DNA from: Opitutus sp. GAS368
GTDB taxonomy: Bacteria; Verrucomicrobiota; Verrucomicrobiia; Opitutales; Opitutaceae
Length of the DNA: 32,312 bases
Direction: 5' to 3'
NCBI GenBank assembly: GCA_945903545.1
Contig: CAMDOO010000038.1
Location: 1 to 32,312, forward strand
Part shown: one piece after another, positions 31-7,819 of the stretch
How the letters are laid out: each line of letters begins with the position of its first letter
How positions within the stretch are numbered: position 1 is the first letter of the stretch
Position numbers and translations under genes: made by a program
Notes under the pieces: generated by a model
What the model saw: the letters and a program-made list of their open reading frames with translations, nothing else
Told to the model about the DNA's origin: nothing
Databases searched by the model: none

Positions 31-1809
31 TCATATTCCACTCAGGGTGCGGAGCAGGCGGGCGTTGTCGGCTGCGCTCTTCACCGCGATACGGACGCAG
101 TGGGTCCCGAGGCGAGGGCTCATTGATGCGGCGTTACGAACGAAGACCCCTTCGCCCCGGGCGGCCTGGACGACCATGGCGGCATCTGGTCCGGCGGACG
201 GCAGGTGGCAGAGCAGGAAGTTCGCGATGCCGGGGAGGACATCCCAGCCGAGGGTGGCGAGTCCGGCGGCGAGCTCGCGCCGCAGGTCGTGGGTCTCGGC
301 GTAGCGTGCCGCATAGTAGCCCGGATCCTGCAGGGCGCGAACCGCCGCCACTTGGGCGGGCAGGCTCACGACCCACGGTGGCGTGATGGCGCGGAGGGCC
401 TCGAGCTGGTGACGCCCGCCGCAGAGGTAGGCCGCGCGGGCCCCGCTCAGGGCGTACACCTTGGACATCGATTTGCAGACGATCACGTTCTCGCTGGCTG
501 CGGCGAAGCCCTCGATCGACTCGGAGATTGGAAGCCCGTGCTTCGCTGAAGCCCCGCAGGGCGCGACCGTTGAGGCGGTCGCGGCGTATTCCACGTACGT
601 TTCATCGACCCAGACGCGCGTGGTCCATGGGACCCGCGCGAGGATGCGTTCCAATTCACGCCCCGGGATGTGGCGGCCCGTCGGGCTGTTGGGATTCACG
701 AGCACGACAAGATCATAGCGGTCGGCCAGGGCGGCCTCGAGGCACTGGAGGTCGACGGCATAGCCCTGTTCACGGGTCAGGGTCAGCCGGTCCACGCGGC
801 ACCCGATGACTTTCTCCAACACGTGCGCGTACTCGCCGTAGGTGGGATCGAGGATCAGGACTTGGGAGTCGGGGGTCAGCCAGTGCCGGAGCGCGCGGAA
901 GATCAGGTCCGATGAACCCCCGCCGGGCAGGATGTTCCAAGGGGCCACTCCCCGGGCGGCGGCGATCTCAGTGATCAGGCCGTCGCAGCTGGTGGGCGGG
1001 GAGGTCCGCAGGAGCCACGGCAGGTGCTCATTCAAGGATGAGATCACGCCGGGCGCCGGAGGGAACCACGCGTCGAGCACGTCGGCATTGAGGATCGTGC
1101 GGCTGCGCTCGAGGTGATCGAAGCGCTCGCCGATTGCGTCGAAGAAGGCCCCGCCGTGAAAACACGGCGCGGGCGGATGGAAGGGGAAGGCCAGGCGCCA
1201 GTCCGTGCGTTCGCAGAGCCGGTCGAGGAGACCGTGGTACTCGGCCGCGCTGGCGCGGAGCTCGGCGGTGTCGCCCACCATCAGGTCGTAGGTCACCGCT
1301 CCCGAGCGGGTGGAGTGTCCGGTCGGGCGCAGGCCCACGCGGGCGTAGAGGCCCGCGATCTCGCGGCGGCCGATCACGACGATGCGCGTTCCGCCGTGCG
1401 ATTCGACCCAGCGCAGGGCCGCGTACATCAGCAGCGTGGCGATCTCACTGCCGCGGTGGGAGCGCGGCACGGTGAGGAGGCGCACCTCCCAAAGGCCGTC
1501 GTCCACCGTGAAGGGCAGCTGGGCCCGCGGGAAATACTTGTCGATCGAGTAGGCCGGGCTGCCCGGGGGCGTGAGGCTCACGAAGCCGCCCACGGCACCG
1601 CCGATCCGGGCGACGAGGTTGAGGTTGTAGGCGTCGAGCGCGTCGGCGAGGCGCCCGGCGGGGTTGGCCGTGTGCTGGCCGAGTTCGAGGGCGTAGACCT
1701 CGTGGCGGAGCGCGGCGATGTGCTCGCGCTCAGGCGCCGTGGCGAGCCCCACGCAATAACGGGCAGTTTCCGTGGTGCGGGCAGTGGGGGTGATCGTGGT
1801 GGCATTCAT
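31..1809 (-). CDS. GNAT acyltransferase-PLP aminotransferase fusion protein
   Basis: 592-aa protein with two fused enzymes. Residues about 15-180 look like a GNAT-type N-acyl/acetyltransferase; the stretch LRHEVYALE followed by a conserved Asp/Asn-rich segment resembles the FeeM/autoinducer-synthase branch of that fold. Residues about 230-592 are a fold-type I class I/II aminotransferase of the histidinol-phosphate/CobD type: GGGSSDLIFRAL cofactor loop, NPNSPTG, WVDETYVEYA with the cofactor Asp, and SMSKVYALSG carrying the Schiff-base lysine (Lys450). Both halves look intact, so transamination and acyl transfer may act on one metabolite, presumably in the cytoplasm. Substrates are unknown. 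The ATG at 1809 is preceded by a C/T-rich leader with no Shine-Dalgarno. It is a lone minus-strand gene; the window begins only 30 bases past its stop. The aminotransferase call is firm, the acyltransferase subtype is tentative. Confidence 0.9.
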   Translation of the reverse strand: MNATTITPTARTTETARYCVGLATAPEREHIAALRHEVYALELGQHTANPAGRLADALDAYNLNLVARIGGAVGGFVSLTPPGSPAYSIDKYFPRAQLPFTVDDGLWEVRLLTVPRSHRGSEIATLLMYAALRWVESHGGTRIVVIGRREIAGLYARVGLRPTGHSTRSGAVTYDLMVGDTAELRASAAEYHGLLDRLCERTDWRLAFPFHPPAPCFHGGAFFDAIGERFDHLERSRTILNADVLDAWFPPAPGVISSLNEHLPWLLRTSPPTSCDGLITEIAAARGVAPWNILPGGGSSDLIFRALRHWLTPDSQVLILDPTYGEYAHVLEKVIGCRVDRLTLTREQGYAVDLQCLEAALADRYDLVVLVNPNSPTGRHIPGRELERILARVPWTTRVWVDETYVEYAATASTVAPCGASAKHGLPISESIEGFAAASENVIVCKSMSKVYALSGARAAYLCGGRHQLEALRAITPPWVVSLPAQVAAVRALQDPGYYAARYAETHDLRRELAAGLATLGWDVLPGIANFLLCHLPSAGPDAAMVVQAARGEGVFVRNAASMSPRLGTHCVRIAVKSAADNARLLRTLSGI

Positions 1810-2070: not shown

Positions 2071-2946
2071 TTACTTCTCTGCCAGGGCGCGAGTGATGGC
2101 GGACTCGAGCTCGGCGCCGCGCAGGTCGCGGCCGATGATGCGGCCCGTGGGGTCGAGGAGGTAGGTGGCGGGGATGCTGTTCACGCCGTATTTCACCGCC
2201 AATTTGTTGTCCCAATGGCCGCCGTCGAAGAACTGTGGCCAGGTCATGCCATGCTGGCGCGTGAACTGGGCGACGGTGCTGCCCTCGCCGCGCCGGTCGA
2301 GGCTCACGCCCACGATCGCAAAGCCCTGGGTCCGGAATTTTTGGTAGGCCCGCACCACGTTGGGCGCCTCGGCGACGCACGGCCCGCACCAGGTGGCCCA
2401 GAAGTCGACGAGCACCACCTGGCCGCGCAGCGCGGCGAGCGAGAGCGGGCGGCCCTCGTGGTCCTTTTCGGAAAAGTCCGGGAAGACCGCGCCGACGACC
2501 AGGCCGGCGCGCGCCTGCTCCGCCGCCACGCGCCGGTCGATCGCGGCGATGATGGAGTCGACCTCGGTGGCGAGGGTGGAGCCGGGGAACTCGGTTTTGA
2601 TCCGCCGGATCAGGGCCCGGCTGCGCTCGGGCGCACCCAGCTCAAGGAACAGGCTGCCCTGCAGTGCGAGCACCTGGGTGGCTTCCTCGGGACGGTCCTG
2701 GCGGCTGGCTTTGAAATGGGCTTCGAGCCCGGCGAGTTCCGTGGCGAAGTCCGCCTCGGTCCTGCCCCCGCCGGAGAGGCGGGTCTGCACGGCCTTGAGC
2801 AGGCGCTCCATCTCCGGGCTGAGCTCGGCCTCGGCGACGGCGGTCTTGGTCAGGGTCGTGCTGCGCGTGCGGACGAAACCGGCCGTGAGCGCGCCGAGGA
2901 GGAGGGCGAAAACGAAGGCGACGGTGATCCGGGTGCGGGGGGACAT
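2071..2946 (-). CDS. TlpA-like membrane-anchored thioredoxin
   Basis: 291-aa protein. Residues 5-24 form an N-terminal membrane anchor or signal. Residues about 40-145 are a helical, tetratricopeptide-like spacer. Residues about 150-290 are a TlpA/ResA-type redoxin domain with VDFWATWCGPC (Cys187, Cys190) and the cis-proline segment NSIPATYLLD. Such proteins act outside the cytoplasmic membrane as thiol-disulfide reductants. It lies downstream of a close paralogue (3050-3898) with the same domain order, so a tandem duplication is likely. The two may be cotranscribed, although the 103-base gap contains two repeat elements. The start at 2946 directly precedes the hydrophobic segment and lacks a Shine-Dalgarno. 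The partner protein is unknown. Confidence 0.9.
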   Translation of the reverse strand: MSPRTRITVAFVFALLLGALTAGFVRTRSTTLTKTAVAEAELSPEMERLLKAVQTRLSGGGRTEADFATELAGLEAHFKASRQDRPEEATQVLALQGSLFLELGAPERSRALIRRIKTEFPGSTLATEVDSIIAAIDRRVAAEQARAGLVVGAVFPDFSEKDHEGRPLSLAALRGQVVLVDFWATWCGPCVAEAPNVVRAYQKFRTQGFAIVGVSLDRRGEGSTVAQFTRQHGMTWPQFFDGGHWDNKLAVKYGVNSIPATYLLDPTGRIIGRDLRGAELESAITRALAEK

Positions 2947-2962
2947 GAGATCCGGATGGTTT

Positions 2963-2993
2963 CTTACAGGAGGGCACGGAGAAAACGGAGGAA
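2963..2993. repeat. half copy of the 'cacggag' intergenic repeat
   Basis: Contains GGGCACGGAGAAAACGGAGG, similar to arms at 1919-1947 and 29820-29848. It is followed by a short direct repeat of CAGTCCCC at about 3004-3016. It sits between the two thioredoxin genes. Confidence 0.45.
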
Positions 2994-3027
2994 TTTATCT
3001 CTCAGTCCCCAGTCCCCAAAACCATCG

Positions 3028-3062
3028 CGGCCGGGTCGTCGACCCAGCCCTACCTTCGATCA
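3028..3062 (-). repeat. REP-like element, family C, overlapping a gene end
   Basis: On the minus strand it reads GTAGGGCTGGGTCGACGACC and continues with CGGCCG: a GTAG head followed by a short hairpin (GGGTCG/CGACCC). The same sequence, identical over about 35 bases with flank, is at 27629-27663. The GTAG head supplies the TAG stop codon of the upstream thioredoxin gene (stop at 3050-3052), and its flank encodes that protein's last residues, SDRR. Confidence 0.75.
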
Positions 3063-3898
3063 CTTTTTGGGAGGGCCTGGTCGAGGGCGGCGGCGAGGGC
3101 GGGGCCGCGGAGGTTCTTGCCGATGATCTTGCCGTCGCGGTCGAGGAGGTAGGTGGCGGGGATGCTGTTCACGCCGTATTTCGCCGCGAGTTCGTTCTGC
3201 CAGTACTTGCCGTCGAAGAACTGCCGCCAGGGCATTTCCTGGTCCTGGGTGAACTTCGCGAACCGCGGGCCGTCGCCGGCGCGGTCGAGGCTGATGCCGA
3301 CGATCTCGAAGCCGCGGGCATGGTAGTCCTTGTAGGCCTTCACGACCGTCGGCAGCTCGGCGATGCATGGGCCGCACCACATGGCCCAGAAATCGACGAG
3401 CACGACCTTGCCGCGATAGTCCTGCAGCGCGAGCGGCTTGCCGGTGGAGTCGTTGACGGCGAAGAGCGGGAAGGCGCTGCCGACCTTGAGCGCGCTCTGG
3501 ATGCGCATCACGGCCGCCTGCGCTTCAACCTGCGCGATCTCAGCATCCATCTTCGCGGCGTACTCGCCTTGAGGGAAGTCCACCTTGATTTTCCGGAAGG
3601 CGGCGAGGGCCTGGTCGGGATCCTCCAGCACCTCGAGGTAGAGCATGCCTTTCATGAGCAGGACCACGGCGACATCGTCGGACTTGTCACTTTGGTACTT
3701 GGTCAGCAGGGCATCGAATTCCCGGAGCTCGGGCGCCATGGCCTCGGCGGTGGTCTCGCCCTTCTTGATCTTGGTCTGGACCTTCTGGACGAGTTTTTGG
3801 AATTCGCCTTGGATCGGCTTGGGAACGCTGGCGGCGGATAACGGGCTGGTGGCGAGGAGGCCGGTGAGCAGGGCGGCGGCGAAGAGACGGATTTTCAT
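3050..3898 (-). CDS. TlpA-like secreted thioredoxin, paralogue of the 2071-2946 gene
   Basis: 282-aa protein with the layout of its neighbour: signal peptide or anchor (residues 1-23, hydrophobic core ending SAAS), helical spacer (25-135), TlpA-type redoxin domain with VDFWAMWCGPC (Cys175, Cys178) and NSIPATYLLD. The reading frame is open 84 bases further upstream, but the ATG at 3898 is chosen because a typical signal sequence (MKIRLFAAALL) begins there. The leader is CCCCCTTTTCCCC, with no Shine-Dalgarno. Two tiny membrane-protein genes lie immediately upstream on the same strand and may share its transcript. Its stop codon falls inside a REP-like element. Expected role: periplasmic thiol reductant; target not identifiable. 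Confidence 0.9.
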   Translation of the reverse strand: MKIRLFAAALLTGLLATSPLSAASVPKPIQGEFQKLVQKVQTKIKKGETTAEAMAPELREFDALLTKYQSDKSDDVAVVLLMKGMLYLEVLEDPDQALAAFRKIKVDFPQGEYAAKMDAEIAQVEAQAAVMRIQSALKVGSAFPLFAVNDSTGKPLALQDYRGKVVLVDFWAMWCGPCIAELPTVVKAYKDYHARGFEIVGISLDRAGDGPRFAKFTQDQEMPWRQFFDGKYWQNELAAKYGVNSIPATYLLDRDGKIIGKNLRGPALAAALDQALPKSDRR

Positions 3899-3994
3899 GG
3901 GGAAAAGGGGGCGCGGATGGGTCGCCGTGGCCGCGGCGGCGGATGGCGGGATTGAGCAAGTTGCCACCGCGTTGTTTTTCAAGCGGAGAAGCGA

Positions 3995-4516: not shown

Positions 4517-7192
4517 CTATTTCCGGAGGAACGGGGCGAACTGCGGATGCGCGTCGCGCCAGATCCGGAGCTCGGCGGACCAGCGCTCGACCTCGTCGGG
4601 CCGGCCGAGCGCGAGGGAGAGGTCCATCAGGTCCTGCAAGCCCCGGCCCAGCCAGAGATGGTGGGGCAGCGGCATGACGGCCTCACGCCGTTTCATGCCC
4701 TCGTAGCCGGAGCGGAGCGGCTCCTCGGCGGCGGCGAAATTTTTCAATCCGGCGAGCGCCGCGCCCCACAGGCAGGCCGCATGGAAGGTGCCCCAGTCGT
4801 CCGGCCGCGTGGAGCTCCGGAGTTGGTGACACTCGCGGGCGGCGATCTCGGCCTCGGCGAACTTGCGTTCCTCCAGCAGCACCACGGCGGAGAGGGCGCG
4901 GAAGTAAGCCTGCTGCCAGGCGTCGCCGGGCTGGTGGACATGGGTGATCTTGCGCAGCTCAAACAGCAGCGACTCGATCTCGGCGAGCGTGCCCTGCTGG
5001 CTCAGGATGGTGTTGAGACGGTCGGCGGAGGCGACGCTGCCGGAGGATTTCAGGCGTTCGCGGATCGCCGAGGCCTCGGTGTAGAGCTTGATGGCCTCGA
5101 GTACCTTCGTGGGCATGTCCTCCCGCACGGCGTACGCCACGCCGAGGAAATTGAGCGAGCTGGCGACCTCGAGGTGGTCGTGACCCAGCACGCGCACATT
5201 CATGTCGCGCGCCTCGGTGAGCAGGTCGACGGCCTCGACGATCCGGCCCTGCTGGAGCTGGACAAAACCCAGGCGTTTCAGCGAGAGGGCGAGGTCGGCG
5301 CTGGCGCCGGCGGGCCGTTGCAGGGTGATGGCCTCGTGGAGGTAGGACTCGGCGGCGGGCAGTTGGCCCTGCCGGATCAGCACCCAGCCGAGGTTGCCGA
5401 GGGTCCGGGCGAGGTCGGGGCGCGCGCTGTCGCCGAGCCGGCCCTGGAGGTCGCGCGCCTCACGCAGGGTTTTTTCCGCCGCGGGCAGCCGGTTGGCTGC
5501 GCTTTGCACGAGGCCGAGGTAGTTCAGCGTCCGGCCGACATCGGGGTGCGAGGCGCCCTGCGACTGGCGGCGCAGGTCGAGCGCGCGGGCGAGCTTGGCC
5601 TCGGCGGACGCGAGCTGGCCGATGCTGAGCGAGATGCCGCCGAGGGTCTCGAGGAACTCGGCCTTCATCTCGGGCTGCGACGGGAGCTCATCGCCGAGCT
5701 CCTGGGCCGAGATGTCGAGGTAGCGGCCGAGCACGTCCTTGTCGCCCTCGACGGCGCCGAGCAGCACGAGGTTGCGGACAAAGCGCCGCATGAAGGCCGC
5801 CATCTGGGCCTGCTCGTGCTCGGCGCGGCGGGCGCGGTGCATGCGGGCACGGCTCACCGCCAAGCCCACCAGCAGCGCGGCGGCGATCGCGAATTGCACC
5901 ACGAACATCGACAGGGCGGCGCCGGCGGAGCCGGTCACGGCGACGAACAGCGTGATCACGAGGGCGATCCCGGTCGCGACGGCGATCCGTTGGCGCTGGA
6001 TCAGCTTGCCGAGGCGGTAGGGCACGCTCGGCGGCCGGGCCAGGACGGGCTCGTTCCGCAGGTAGCGGCCGAGGTCGGCGGTGAGGCCGACCACGGTCTC
6101 GTAGCGGCGGGCGCGGTTCTTCTCCAGCGCCTTCATCACGATCCAGTCGAGGTCGCCGCAGAGGGTGGAGACGAGCTGGGAGGCGCCGAGGCCGCGCTGC
6201 TTGGCGACGGTGGTCTGCTCGTCACCGGGCAGCGTGCGCAACCGGCTCGAGGGCCGGGGCGGCTCGACCTCGCGGATCGTGCGCCGGAAGTCGTCGATCC
6301 CACCCTGAGACAGGGCCTTGGCATCGAACGGCTGCACCCCGGTGAGCAATTCATAGAGCAGCACCCCGAGGCTGTAGATGTCGCTGCGGGTATCGATATC
6401 GAGGCTGCTCATCTCGGCCTGCTCGGGACTCATGTAGGCGGGCGTGCCGATGAAGTGCTCGAAGGCGGTGAAGAGAGTGCGCTCGGTGAGGCGGCCCTGC
6501 GTGGCCTTGGCGATGCCGAAGTCGATCACCTTGGGCAGGGCCACACCGTCGTGCAGCGTCACGAGAATGTTCGACGGCTTGATGTCGCGGTGGATGACCC
6601 CCTTCTGGTGCGCGTGCTGGATCGCGTGGCCGACCTGGGTAAACAGCTCGAGCCGGGCGGGGGTGGTCAGGTTGTGCTGGTTGCAGAAATCGGTGATCCG
6701 GACGCCGCGGACCAGCTCCATCACGAAGTAGGGCCGGCCCTGCGCGGTGGCGCCGCCGTCGAAGACTCGCGCGATATTGGGGTGGTCCATCAGCGCGAGG
6801 GCCTGCCGCTCGGCCTCGAAGCGGGCGACGACTGCCTTGGTGTCCATGCCGAGCTTGATCACCTTGAGCGCGACGCGCCGGCGGACGGGTTCCTCCTGCT
6901 CGGCCATGTAGACGACCCCGCAGCCGCCCTCGCCGATTTTCTGGAGCAGTTTGTAGCGGCCGATGCGGGCGCCCGGCATTTCCTCCGCGGCCGCGCGGGC
7001 GTCCGGGATCGTGGGGGAGGGGGTGGCCGGGGAAACCTCGAGAAAGTCCCCGGCGTCGGCATCGGCCTGCAGCAGGGCCTCGAGCCGCTTTCGCAGCGCG
7101 GCGTCGCCGGCGCAAAGCCGGTCGAGCTGGGCGGCGCGGTCTGCCGGGGCAACCTCAAGCAGCTGGATGAAGCAATCCTCCTCGCGGTTCAT
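4517..7192 (-). CDS. PknB-type Ser/Thr protein kinase with transmembrane segment and TPR repeats
   Basis: 891 aa. Residues 1-75 form a short helical N-terminus of the kind found on kinases paired with ECF sigma factors. The kinase domain spans about 80-345: glycine loop GEGGCGVVY (87-95), VALK lysine (Lys110), HRDIKPSNIL (201-210), DFG (224-226), and TPAYMSPEQAE in the activation segment. All catalytic residues are present, so it should be active. One or two membrane segments follow at about 405-450 (ATGIALVITLFVAVTG and a second stretch). The remaining ~430 residues are TPR repeats, several with the YLHEAITLQR/ARALDLRRQ pattern, probably a protein-binding sensor part. It starts 30 bases after the sigma-factor stop, so the two genes are probably one operon in which the kinase tunes the sigma factor; this arrangement is common in Planctomycetes and Verrucomicrobia. 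Confidence 0.95.
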   Translation of the reverse strand: MNREEDCFIQLLEVAPADRAAQLDRLCAGDAALRKRLEALLQADADAGDFLEVSPATPSPTIPDARAAAEEMPGARIGRYKLLQKIGEGGCGVVYMAEQEEPVRRRVALKVIKLGMDTKAVVARFEAERQALALMDHPNIARVFDGGATAQGRPYFVMELVRGVRITDFCNQHNLTTPARLELFTQVGHAIQHAHQKGVIHRDIKPSNILVTLHDGVALPKVIDFGIAKATQGRLTERTLFTAFEHFIGTPAYMSPEQAEMSSLDIDTRSDIYSLGVLLYELLTGVQPFDAKALSQGGIDDFRRTIREVEPPRPSSRLRTLPGDEQTTVAKQRGLGASQLVSTLCGDLDWIVMKALEKNRARRYETVVGLTADLGRYLRNEPVLARPPSVPYRLGKLIQRQRIAVATGIALVITLFVAVTGSAGAALSMFVVQFAIAAALLVGLAVSRARMHRARRAEHEQAQMAAFMRRFVRNLVLLGAVEGDKDVLGRYLDISAQELGDELPSQPEMKAEFLETLGGISLSIGQLASAEAKLARALDLRRQSQGASHPDVGRTLNYLGLVQSAANRLPAAEKTLREARDLQGRLGDSARPDLARTLGNLGWVLIRQGQLPAAESYLHEAITLQRPAGASADLALSLKRLGFVQLQQGRIVEAVDLLTEARDMNVRVLGHDHLEVASSLNFLGVAYAVREDMPTKVLEAIKLYTEASAIRERLKSSGSVASADRLNTILSQQGTLAEIESLLFELRKITHVHQPGDAWQQAYFRALSAVVLLEERKFAEAEIAARECHQLRSSTRPDDWGTFHAACLWGAALAGLKNFAAAEEPLRSGYEGMKRREAVMPLPHHLWLGRGLQDLMDLSLALGRPDEVERWSAELRIWRDAHPQFAPFLRK

Positions 7193-7222
7193 GGTGGTGC
7201 TCGGTCCCGCGGGAGCGGCGGG

Positions 7223-7819
7223 TCACTCCTTGATCGCGGCGTACAGCCAGGCGCGGGCGAAGGTCCAATCGCGCTTGGCTGTCGGGGTGGAGATGGCGAG
7301 GGTCTCGGCGGCCTGCTCGATGGTGAGGCCGGCGAAATAGCGGAGCTTCACGAGCTGGGCCTTGCGCGGGTGCTCGAGCGCGAGGCGGTCGAGGGCGTCG
7401 TTGACGGCGAGTAGTTCATCATCGGCACCCGGGCCGGGGACCTCGATGGCACCAGTGGCGTTCAGGTTGACGCGCTCCAGACCGCCGCCGTGGCGGACGG
7501 CGTGGCGCTTGCGGGCGCGGTCGATCAGGATGCGGCGCATGGCTTCGGCCGCGGCTCCGAAGAAATGCGCCCGGTTCTGCCAGGCGGGCTGTTCGTCGCC
7601 GCCGAGGCGCAGCCAGGCCTCGTGCACGAGTGCGGTGGGCTGGAGGGTCTGTCCGGCGAGTTCGCGCGACAGCTTCGACGCGGCGAGCTTCCGCAGTTCG
7701 GCGTAGACCAGCTCGAGCAGGCGCTCCTGGGCCTTGGGATCGCCGCTTTCGATCTGGTGCAGGATCAGGGTCACGTCTTGCACGGGCCGAGAGATGGCCA
7801 AGGCCCCGGGTTGAGGCAA
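7223..7819 (-). CDS. ECF-family RNA polymerase sigma factor (TIGR02999-like)
   Basis: 198 aa. The region-2-like start has AQERLLELVYAELRKLAA and the characteristic GQTLQPTALVHEAWLRL. Next come RAHFFGAAAEAMRRILIDRA and, at the C-terminus, a region-4 helix-turn-helix (LVKLRYFAGLTIEQAAETL, then STPTAKRDW). These match the sigma-70 ECF group that directs specialised promoters and is usually linked to a Ser/Thr kinase; here the kinase is the next gene, 30 bases downstream. No anti-sigma factor gene is visible. The ATG at 7819 is used; a later GTG start near residue 13 is possible. Its regulon cannot be read from this window. Confidence 0.93.
   Translation of the reverse strand: MPQPGALAISRPVQDVTLILHQIESGDPKAQERLLELVYAELRKLAASKLSRELAGQTLQPTALVHEAWLRLGGDEQPAWQNRAHFFGAAAEAMRRILIDRARKRHAVRHGGGLERVNLNATGAIEVPGPGADDELLAVNDALDRLALEHPRKAQLVKLRYFAGLTIEQAAETLAISTPTAKRDWTFARAWLYAAIKE

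Follow-up and report, generated by a model that had tools for sequence, protein, structure and literature searches.

The window, by which we mean the whole stretch of DNA analysed here (32,312 nucleotides), makes up the entire contig C38 in the draft genome (3.08 Mb) of Opitutus sp. GAS368. Close to one end it carries a minus-strand gene for a protein in which a GNAT domain is followed by a PLP enzyme domain (Table 1); the plus-strand frame over the same positions is interrupted by stops. Since the stop codon sits 30 bases from the contig end, the 3' neighbourhood of the gene is out of view. On the 5' side, a redoxin gene is found 261 bases off.

Two tandem redoxin/thioredoxin-like paralogues (2074-3982, minus strand) adjoin the fusion gene, and a Ser/Thr kinase with TPRs is encoded beside an ECF sigma factor gene (PF07638) at 4520-7819 on the same strand. 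Others beyond them on this side show no evident relation to the fusion.

Table 1. Features of the fusion gene; positions refer to the window, residues to the encoded protein.
Feature	Position	Strand	Remarks
GNAT-PLP fusion gene	31..1809	-	592 aa from an ATG; range includes the stop codon
GNAT / AHL-synthase-like N-acyltransferase domain, residues 17-207	1189..1761	-	Pfam, predicted model, fold matches, 17 invariant residues
CobD/HisC-type PLP enzyme domain, residues 216-592	34..1164	-	Pfam, NCBIfam, fold comparison
Codon of Lys450, expected PLP Schiff-base lysine	460..462	-	Invariant in 53 fused sequences
His218-Gly-Gly, N-terminal loop in common with CobD	1150..1158	-	Invariant
DVLDAWF, residues 243-249, PLP-subfamily signature	1063..1083	-	243-248 invariant, F249 nearly so; also in stand-alone forms
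Arg558-to-Arg573 stretch with two invariant arginines	91..138	-	Alignment of fused sequences
17-residue insert, residues 412-428	526..576	-	Low model confidence; missing from most homologues

The two domains of the fusion protein

For the full-length protein, AlphaFold gave a model with a mean pLDDT of 89.5, and for the GNAT part alone one of 92.0. Residues 57-147 match the GNAT family PF00583 (23.8 bits, above the cut-off of 20.7), while the FeeM family PF21926 matches residues 31-168 slightly below its cut-off (E 1.9e-5, 24.9 bits vs 27). The window protein has no match to PF13444, the OlsB/GlsB type, up to E 1, and no PDB sequence matches its GNAT domain up to E 5. Structure comparison is more informative. 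The AHL synthases BjaI and RpaI are the top Foldseek matches of the GNAT model, followed by LasI, TofI, and FeeM. In VIA-align, RpaI, BjaI, LasI, and TofI reach Z 18-19 over 169-185 residues, RpaI and BjaI being highest (Z 19, up to 19.1; rmsd 2.5-2.6; 183-185 residues), and FeeM (2g0b) reaches Z 17.7 with an rmsd of 2.6 over 167 residues. The short GNAT 5jph scores nearly as high (Z 18.3, 140 residues), and the fold matches also include SbzI, a GNAT from altemicidin biosynthesis (Z 16.2). The AHL/FeeM group is therefore singled out not by Z alone but because only its members cover the whole domain. According to the predicted model, residues 17-207 fold like AHL synthases and FeeM. This is in agreement with the initial annotation, which had likened the N-terminal part to autoinducer or N-acyl amino acid synthases; neither domain search nor structure prediction assigned it an unrelated fold. 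Seventeen GNAT residues are invariant in 35 sequences, among them R35, E42, Q45, E108, R110, R119, and Y155.

Residues 216-592 constitute a complete class I/II PLP enzyme nearest to CobD and HisC. Residues 280-588 match Aminotran_1_2 (PF00155; E 9.7e-37, 127.4 bits vs a cut-off of 19.7), and N374, D402, Y405, Lys450, and R458 are invariant in 53 aligned fused sequences, that of the window included. Pfam and this invariance thus confirm the description of one 592-residue chain with a GNAT/FeeM-like domain and a complete PLP enzyme around Lys450. The proposed HisC/CobD type holds in the sense of nearest families, both scores lying below their cut-offs: the best NCBIfam match is hisC (TIGR01141; 169 bits vs 276.55), and CobD (TIGR01140) gives 166.8 bits vs 290.55. 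Structural matches are similarly divided. Foldseek, run with the full model, lists in its first five rows aminotransferases of the HisC type or related to it (8bj1, 8bj4, 4r2n, 8bj3), and the HisC 8bj1 is top by E-value for the PLP part. Sixth is CobD (1lc7), whose query-normalised TM of 0.55 is the best among the 50 chains listed and which reaches 0.89 when normalised by target length, while 3ftb, a chain titled HisC, has 0.90 on the latter scale. SMUL_1544 is found among the structural matches of the PLP part as well.

Three sequence features lean to CobD. The N-terminal HGG is present in a CobD encoded beside cobQ, the CobD-like sequences L132-L134 read GHG, and HisC sequences have neither; a PW in the fusion and the CobD-like sequences stands where HisC sequences read PF; and the C-terminal arginine stretch of the fusion is longer, as in CobD. 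We take the HGG loop and the PW motif to be CobD markers, and HGG and the two arginines Arg558 and Arg573 presumably sit where HisC and CobD structures hold phosphate or carboxylate. In a plasmid collection, the best match outside Streptomyces is a CobD on a Subdoligranulum plasmid, encoded beside cobQ and 35% identical, whose own score of 287.5 against the CobD model falls 3 bits short of the cut-off. A very long branch separates the PLP family of the fusion from the CobD-like and HisC sequences in a quick tree, most deeper forks of which are weak; L070 was dropped from it as too short, and L049, L066, L080, and L081 were excluded together with the duplicates L100, L102, and L103.

The insert at residues 412-428 is missing in about 52 of 56 aligned sequences and is surrounded by inverted repeats. 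There is no second copy of it within the window.

Two other HisC proteins of the same genome exceed the family cut-off, with 337.8 and 290.2 bits; the gene of the latter lies beside hisD. Since the genome has two true HisC elsewhere, a role of the fusion in histidine synthesis is unlikely. Histidine genes are absent among the identified neighbours of its homologues, which speaks against the association with plain histidine biosynthesis that the initial annotation had considered. Cobalamin biosynthesis was rejected as well: the CobD score is below cut-off, and cob genes are absent among the neighbours identified.

Distribution of the fusion and its stand-alone relatives

The genome under study holds one full copy of the fusion, and at E<=1e-30 it is itself the only positive among 57 relatives. 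At E<=1e-80, 11 of 387 Verrucomicrobiota genomes were positive; one of these lacks the GNAT part. In the order to which Actinoplanes belongs, 4 of 397 genomes were positive, counting Actinoplanes itself. The genome_contigs collection yielded 76 loci from Verrucomicrobiota, Planctomycetota, Acidobacteriota, Bacteroidota, Actinomycetota, and others, the labels of MAGs being unreliable. The GNAT part is missing in 12 of these loci; the other 64 carry it together with at least part of the PLP domain. Recurring in 64 loci, isolate genomes included, the fusion is neither a chance nor an assembly join. The isolates come from at least four phyla, with Haloferula rosea, Actinoplanes regularis, and Occallatibacter savannae among them. 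One copy (L049) has an in-frame stop. Eight Streptomyces plasmids carry the fusion; two copies are unannotated, and the label 'histidinol-phosphate transaminase' on the other six hides a conserved two-domain enzyme. This patchy spread suggests an accessory trait that moved between lineages. A phage or viral origin was rejected: none of six pattern matches in viral contigs is a relative, and two matches in phage records are 26% identical and annotated as hisC.

Stand-alone PLP forms are scattered over several places of the quick tree, whose group count sets them against outgroups only and is silent on the frequency of GNAT loss. One of them, L104, groups with four fused Kiritimatiellota sequences (support 99). 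Eleven genomes encode a stand-alone PLP protein; nine of them have no GNAT match at E<=0.001, some being incomplete. As stand-alone PLP forms exist and are scattered in the tree, the PLP reaction is evidently useful without this GNAT. By eye, no telling neighbours were recognised beside the stand-alone genes of Prochlorococcus, a gamma-proteobacterial contig, Planctomycetota, and Chloroflexota. The Prochlorococcus forms (L075, L076, L078), from single-cell genomes, are 44-46% identical to the PLP domain.

Lipid genes beside the fusion and a second GNAT-PLP fusion

A lipid enzyme is encoded near the fusion in 20 of 89 loci, a raw count over selected partner families, with queries drawn from the same loci and without a random-gene baseline. 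Duplicates of L007, L019, L044, L045, L057, and L059 are excluded from the 89, near-copies such as L032/L034/L063 and L015/L017/L058 are counted, and in high-GC loci genes were called by simple scripts, some in the wrong frame or strand. The 20 loci comprise 12 with an Aas-type gene, five with a CdsA-like gene, and one each with a CDP-alcohol transferase, a DAG kinase, and an OlsC-like hydroxylase. The remaining 69 have no lipid partner among the families tested. Short contigs cannot account for this, since just 10 of them are under 6 kb. A Pfam tally of 48 neighbours gave a broad mix, the top family being matched by at most five.

Aas-like genes, defined by PlsC and AMP-ligase matches at E<1e-70, lie on the strand of the fusion in all 12 loci (L007, L010, L013, L044, L046, L055, L057, L065, L097, L098, L099, and L104) and within 1 kb of it in nine. 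Their hosts are Opitutaceae, Pontiellaceae and relatives, plus two other lineages. In ten loci they are accompanied by an MFS domain or gene; the contig of L055 begins within the gene, and L065 yielded none. An alpha/beta hydrolase is added in seven loci; a LysR gene occurs in 11 loci. The NCBIfam name for the Aas-like protein is acyl-[ACP]--phospholipid O-acyltransferase, at 1150.8 bits and thus under the cut-off of 1221. Weaker PlsC or ligase matches in L023, L040, and L049 stand outside the count of 12.

Among ten Actinomycetota loci, five (L059, L082, L083, L084, L152) have a CdsA-like gene (PF01148) 3' of the fusion, on the same strand and within about 110 bases; none was found in L049, L148, L149, L150, and L153. 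The L084 protein is named phosphatidate cytidylyltransferase by NCBIfam (62.5 bits, under the cut-off of 385), and the CdsA-like neighbour in Actinoplanes is a second, divergent copy (120.8 vs 203.5 bits). A CDP-alcohol phosphatidyltransferase (CDP-OH_P_transf) lies beside the fusion in L052 and a diacylglycerol kinase (DAGK) in L070. In a Saprospiraceae MAG (L068, 9704-10459), the gene of the OlsC-like hydroxylase, from the family of ornithine-lipid acyl hydroxylases, overlaps the fusion by four bases (NCBIfam, 213.4 bits, under the cut-off of 450).

On the Streptomyces plasmids L082, L083, L084, and L152, the fusion is followed by the CdsA-like gene, with a 4-base overlap in the three that are annotated; L153 is without it.

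The genome under study has a single PlsY and an Aas-like gene on another contig (C122, L154), located after an Atg22/MFS-type gene and encoding a protein 69% identical to that of L010. This gene ends 139 bases short of the end of the locus, and the 139-base tail has no meaningful match to the window; physical linkage to the fusion is hence unsupported.

A GNAT search in 13 genomes, including the 11 with a stand-alone PLP protein, was positive in two of these 11, each time with the GNAT fused to another PLP enzyme. This second fusion, of about 540 residues (loci L107-L112 and L113-L130), joins a FeeM-type GNAT to a class V aminotransferase whose nearest family is PhnW, with a score under the NCBIfam cut-off. 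Two sister proteins of this type exceed the FeeM (PF21926) cut-off of 27 with 32.5 and 39.3 bits, and PF13444 matches both of them. The GNAT domains of the two fusions are 24% identical over 158 residues. The PhnW-type fusion is present in 18 of 387 Verrucomicrobiota genomes and has apparently arisen independently of the CobD-type fusion. In 14 of 18 loci, a PlsY homologue (PF02660) is encoded no more than about 170 bases upstream; there is none within 1.5 kb in L125, L127, and L128, and L119 runs into the contig end. Fifteen of the 18 genomes have a divergent PlsY (109-136 bits vs 152-188 for normal copies), encoded next to the fusion in 14. A normal copy is kept as well in 14 of the 15, while G069 has the divergent one alone. 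No divergent PlsY was found in 12 genomes without the PhnW-type fusion, a control that is not lineage-matched, since all 12 are from the family of the window and four have the CobD-type fusion; G169 has two normal copies.

Proposed function and relation to known systems

At the class level, the fusion probably N-acylates an amine made by its own PLP domain and thereby forms a lipid. Its specific version, a bifunctional lipid enzyme with a phosphorylated serinol-type intermediate, is put forward tentatively, its chances appearing to us somewhat below even. As the initial annotation had proposed, the two reactions would act in series on one molecule, and we infer the substrate and the coupling of the two domains as follows. 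The CobD-like PLP domain would bind a small phosphorylated substrate and turn it into a phosphorylated amine, in the most likely case by transaminating dihydroxyacetone phosphate to serinol-3-phosphate. The GNAT, to judge from its fold, would then move a fatty acyl chain from CoA or ACP to the amine, giving an N-acyl-amine phosphate, the amide analogue of lysophosphatidate. An O-acyltransferase of the Aas/PlsC type, a CdsA-like enzyme, and a CDP-alcohol transferase, such as are encoded beside the fusion in other genomes, may add the second chain and the head group. Serinol-3-phosphate is our guess for the phosphorylated amine and fits best because it leaves free a hydroxyl that PlsY or PlsC could acylate.

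Both PLP types are nearest to families with known members that handle small phosphorylated or phosphonate amines. Both fusions lie, in part of their loci, beside families acting on (lyso)phosphatidate or glycerol phosphate. Since two unlike PLP enzymes are joined to related GNATs and have lipid neighbours, the simplest account would be that a phosphorylated amine is N-acylated where otherwise glycerol-3-phosphate is O-acylated. The initial annotation had raised a signal or a lipid as product; the lipid is strengthened by the lipid genes in a minority of loci, while the signal has gained no separate support. Precedent for the chemistry is given by RtxA and Cj1437, which form serinol-phosphate from DHAP according to PMC3222319 and PMC11800397. 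A further-reaching version, in which N-acyl serinol-3-phosphate replaces 1-acyl-glycerol-3-phosphate in an amide-linked phospholipid backbone, with two independent fusions and dedicated PlsY, PlsC/Aas, and CdsA paralogues, is possible but rather unlikely.

Relatives of CobD include decarboxylases as well as transaminases. The main rival is accordingly a PLP decarboxylase of the CobD, SMUL_1544, or Cj1436 type that makes ethanolamine phosphate from phosphoserine, or else aminopropanol phosphate from phosphothreonine, for N-acylation by the GNAT. The CobD-leaning motifs, CobD among the closest folds, and SMUL_1544 among the matches are consistent with it, and Cj1436 converts phosphoserine to ethanolamine phosphate (PMC11800397). 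It would also explain the sister fusion, as 2-aminoethylphosphonate, the product of PhnW, is the phosphonate analogue. However, N-acyl-ethanolamine phosphate would offer PlsY or PlsC no free hydroxyl unless the acyl chain is 3-hydroxylated, and HisC and CobD are not told apart by the family scores (169 vs 166.8 bits); we regard this rival as unlikely. It is followed, at a lower probability, by an unphosphorylated fatty amide, such as an N-acyl amino acid or N-acyl serinol, serving as a signal or aminolipid in the manner of FeeM, OlsB/GlsB, or hm-NAS. The GNAT fold and the OlsC-like hydroxylase gene of L068 would suit such a product, and bacterial N-acyl serinols are described in PMC10666787 and PMC11271093. 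The CdsA-like, CDP-alcohol, DAG-kinase, and PlsY partner families argue against it, their members having lipid or glycerol phosphates as substrates or products. The residues of the CobD-type phosphate site, a role that we presume for them, are invariant and likewise disfavour it.

We find it improbable that the domains do not act in series, i.e., that an independent PLP enzyme is joined to a short-chain acetyltransferase or a regulatory GNAT. The stand-alone PLP forms, those of Prochlorococcus included, would agree with this, given their several places in a weakly resolved tree and the nine of 11 genomes without a GNAT match, as would the high score of some small acetyltransferases against the GNAT model (5jph). 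On the other hand, the fusion is kept in 64 of 76 loci, two unlike PLP enzymes are joined to related GNATs, and the structural matches spanning the whole domain belong to AHL synthases and FeeM. A PLP reaction that uses SAM, as in SbzP (annulation of NAD and SAM) or CqsA, with the GNAT acylating the product, appears very improbable. SbzI is among the fold matches, and homologues of SbzP have been reported from multiple phyla (PMC11610977), but the motifs fit a phosphate-binding CobD. The altemicidin lead (GNAT, PLP, and NAD; PMC6331615, PMC11610977, and PMC10491745) was kept as a minor rival.

If the N-acylated amine phosphate lipid is indeed the product, the fusion offers genetic access to a lipid class that is as yet undescribed, and two unlike PLP enzymes have been joined to related acyltransferases, each with different lipid-enzyme partners. 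This reading is directly testable in cultured hosts. No description of a GNAT-PLP fusion was found in the literature searched, a scope outside which most subscription papers fall; the architecture, its apparent twofold origin, and its lipid context appear to be undescribed, while the parts are of known kinds.

An aminotransferase domain is reportedly also present in the N-acyl serinol synthase of Gemella. This enzyme (Cohen 2017), known here from reviews rather than by sequence, N-acylates serinol. SMUL_1544, Cj1436, Cj1437, and the N-terminal domain of RtxA resemble the fusion, in its proposed role, as makers of phosphorylated amines, SMUL_1544 as a structural relative and the other three by description rather than sequence; an N-acyltransferase domain is unmentioned in the excerpts that describe them. 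OlsB/OlsA and GlsB/GlsA share the order of events proposed for the fusion, with N-acylation by a GNAT followed by O-acylation, PlsC-like in OlsA; OlsB and GlsB acylate amino acids, and a PLP partner is unmentioned in the excerpt of PMC11631085. Their family PF13444, as noted above, leaves the window protein unmatched. CobD, the L-threonine-O-3-phosphate decarboxylase, has the fold, the lysine, the HGG loop, and the PW motif in common with the C-terminal domain. Unlike CobD, the fusion scores far below the family cut-off, bears DVLDAWF and a GNAT, and has no cobalamin genes among the neighbours identified. FeeM acts on tyrosine and AHL synthases act on SAM. Both FeeM and the AHL synthases BjaI, RpaI, LasI, and TofI have the same fold as the N-terminal domain and are 12-19% identical to it over the aligned part, yet they stand alone, whereas the GNAT of the fusion is joined to a PLP enzyme.
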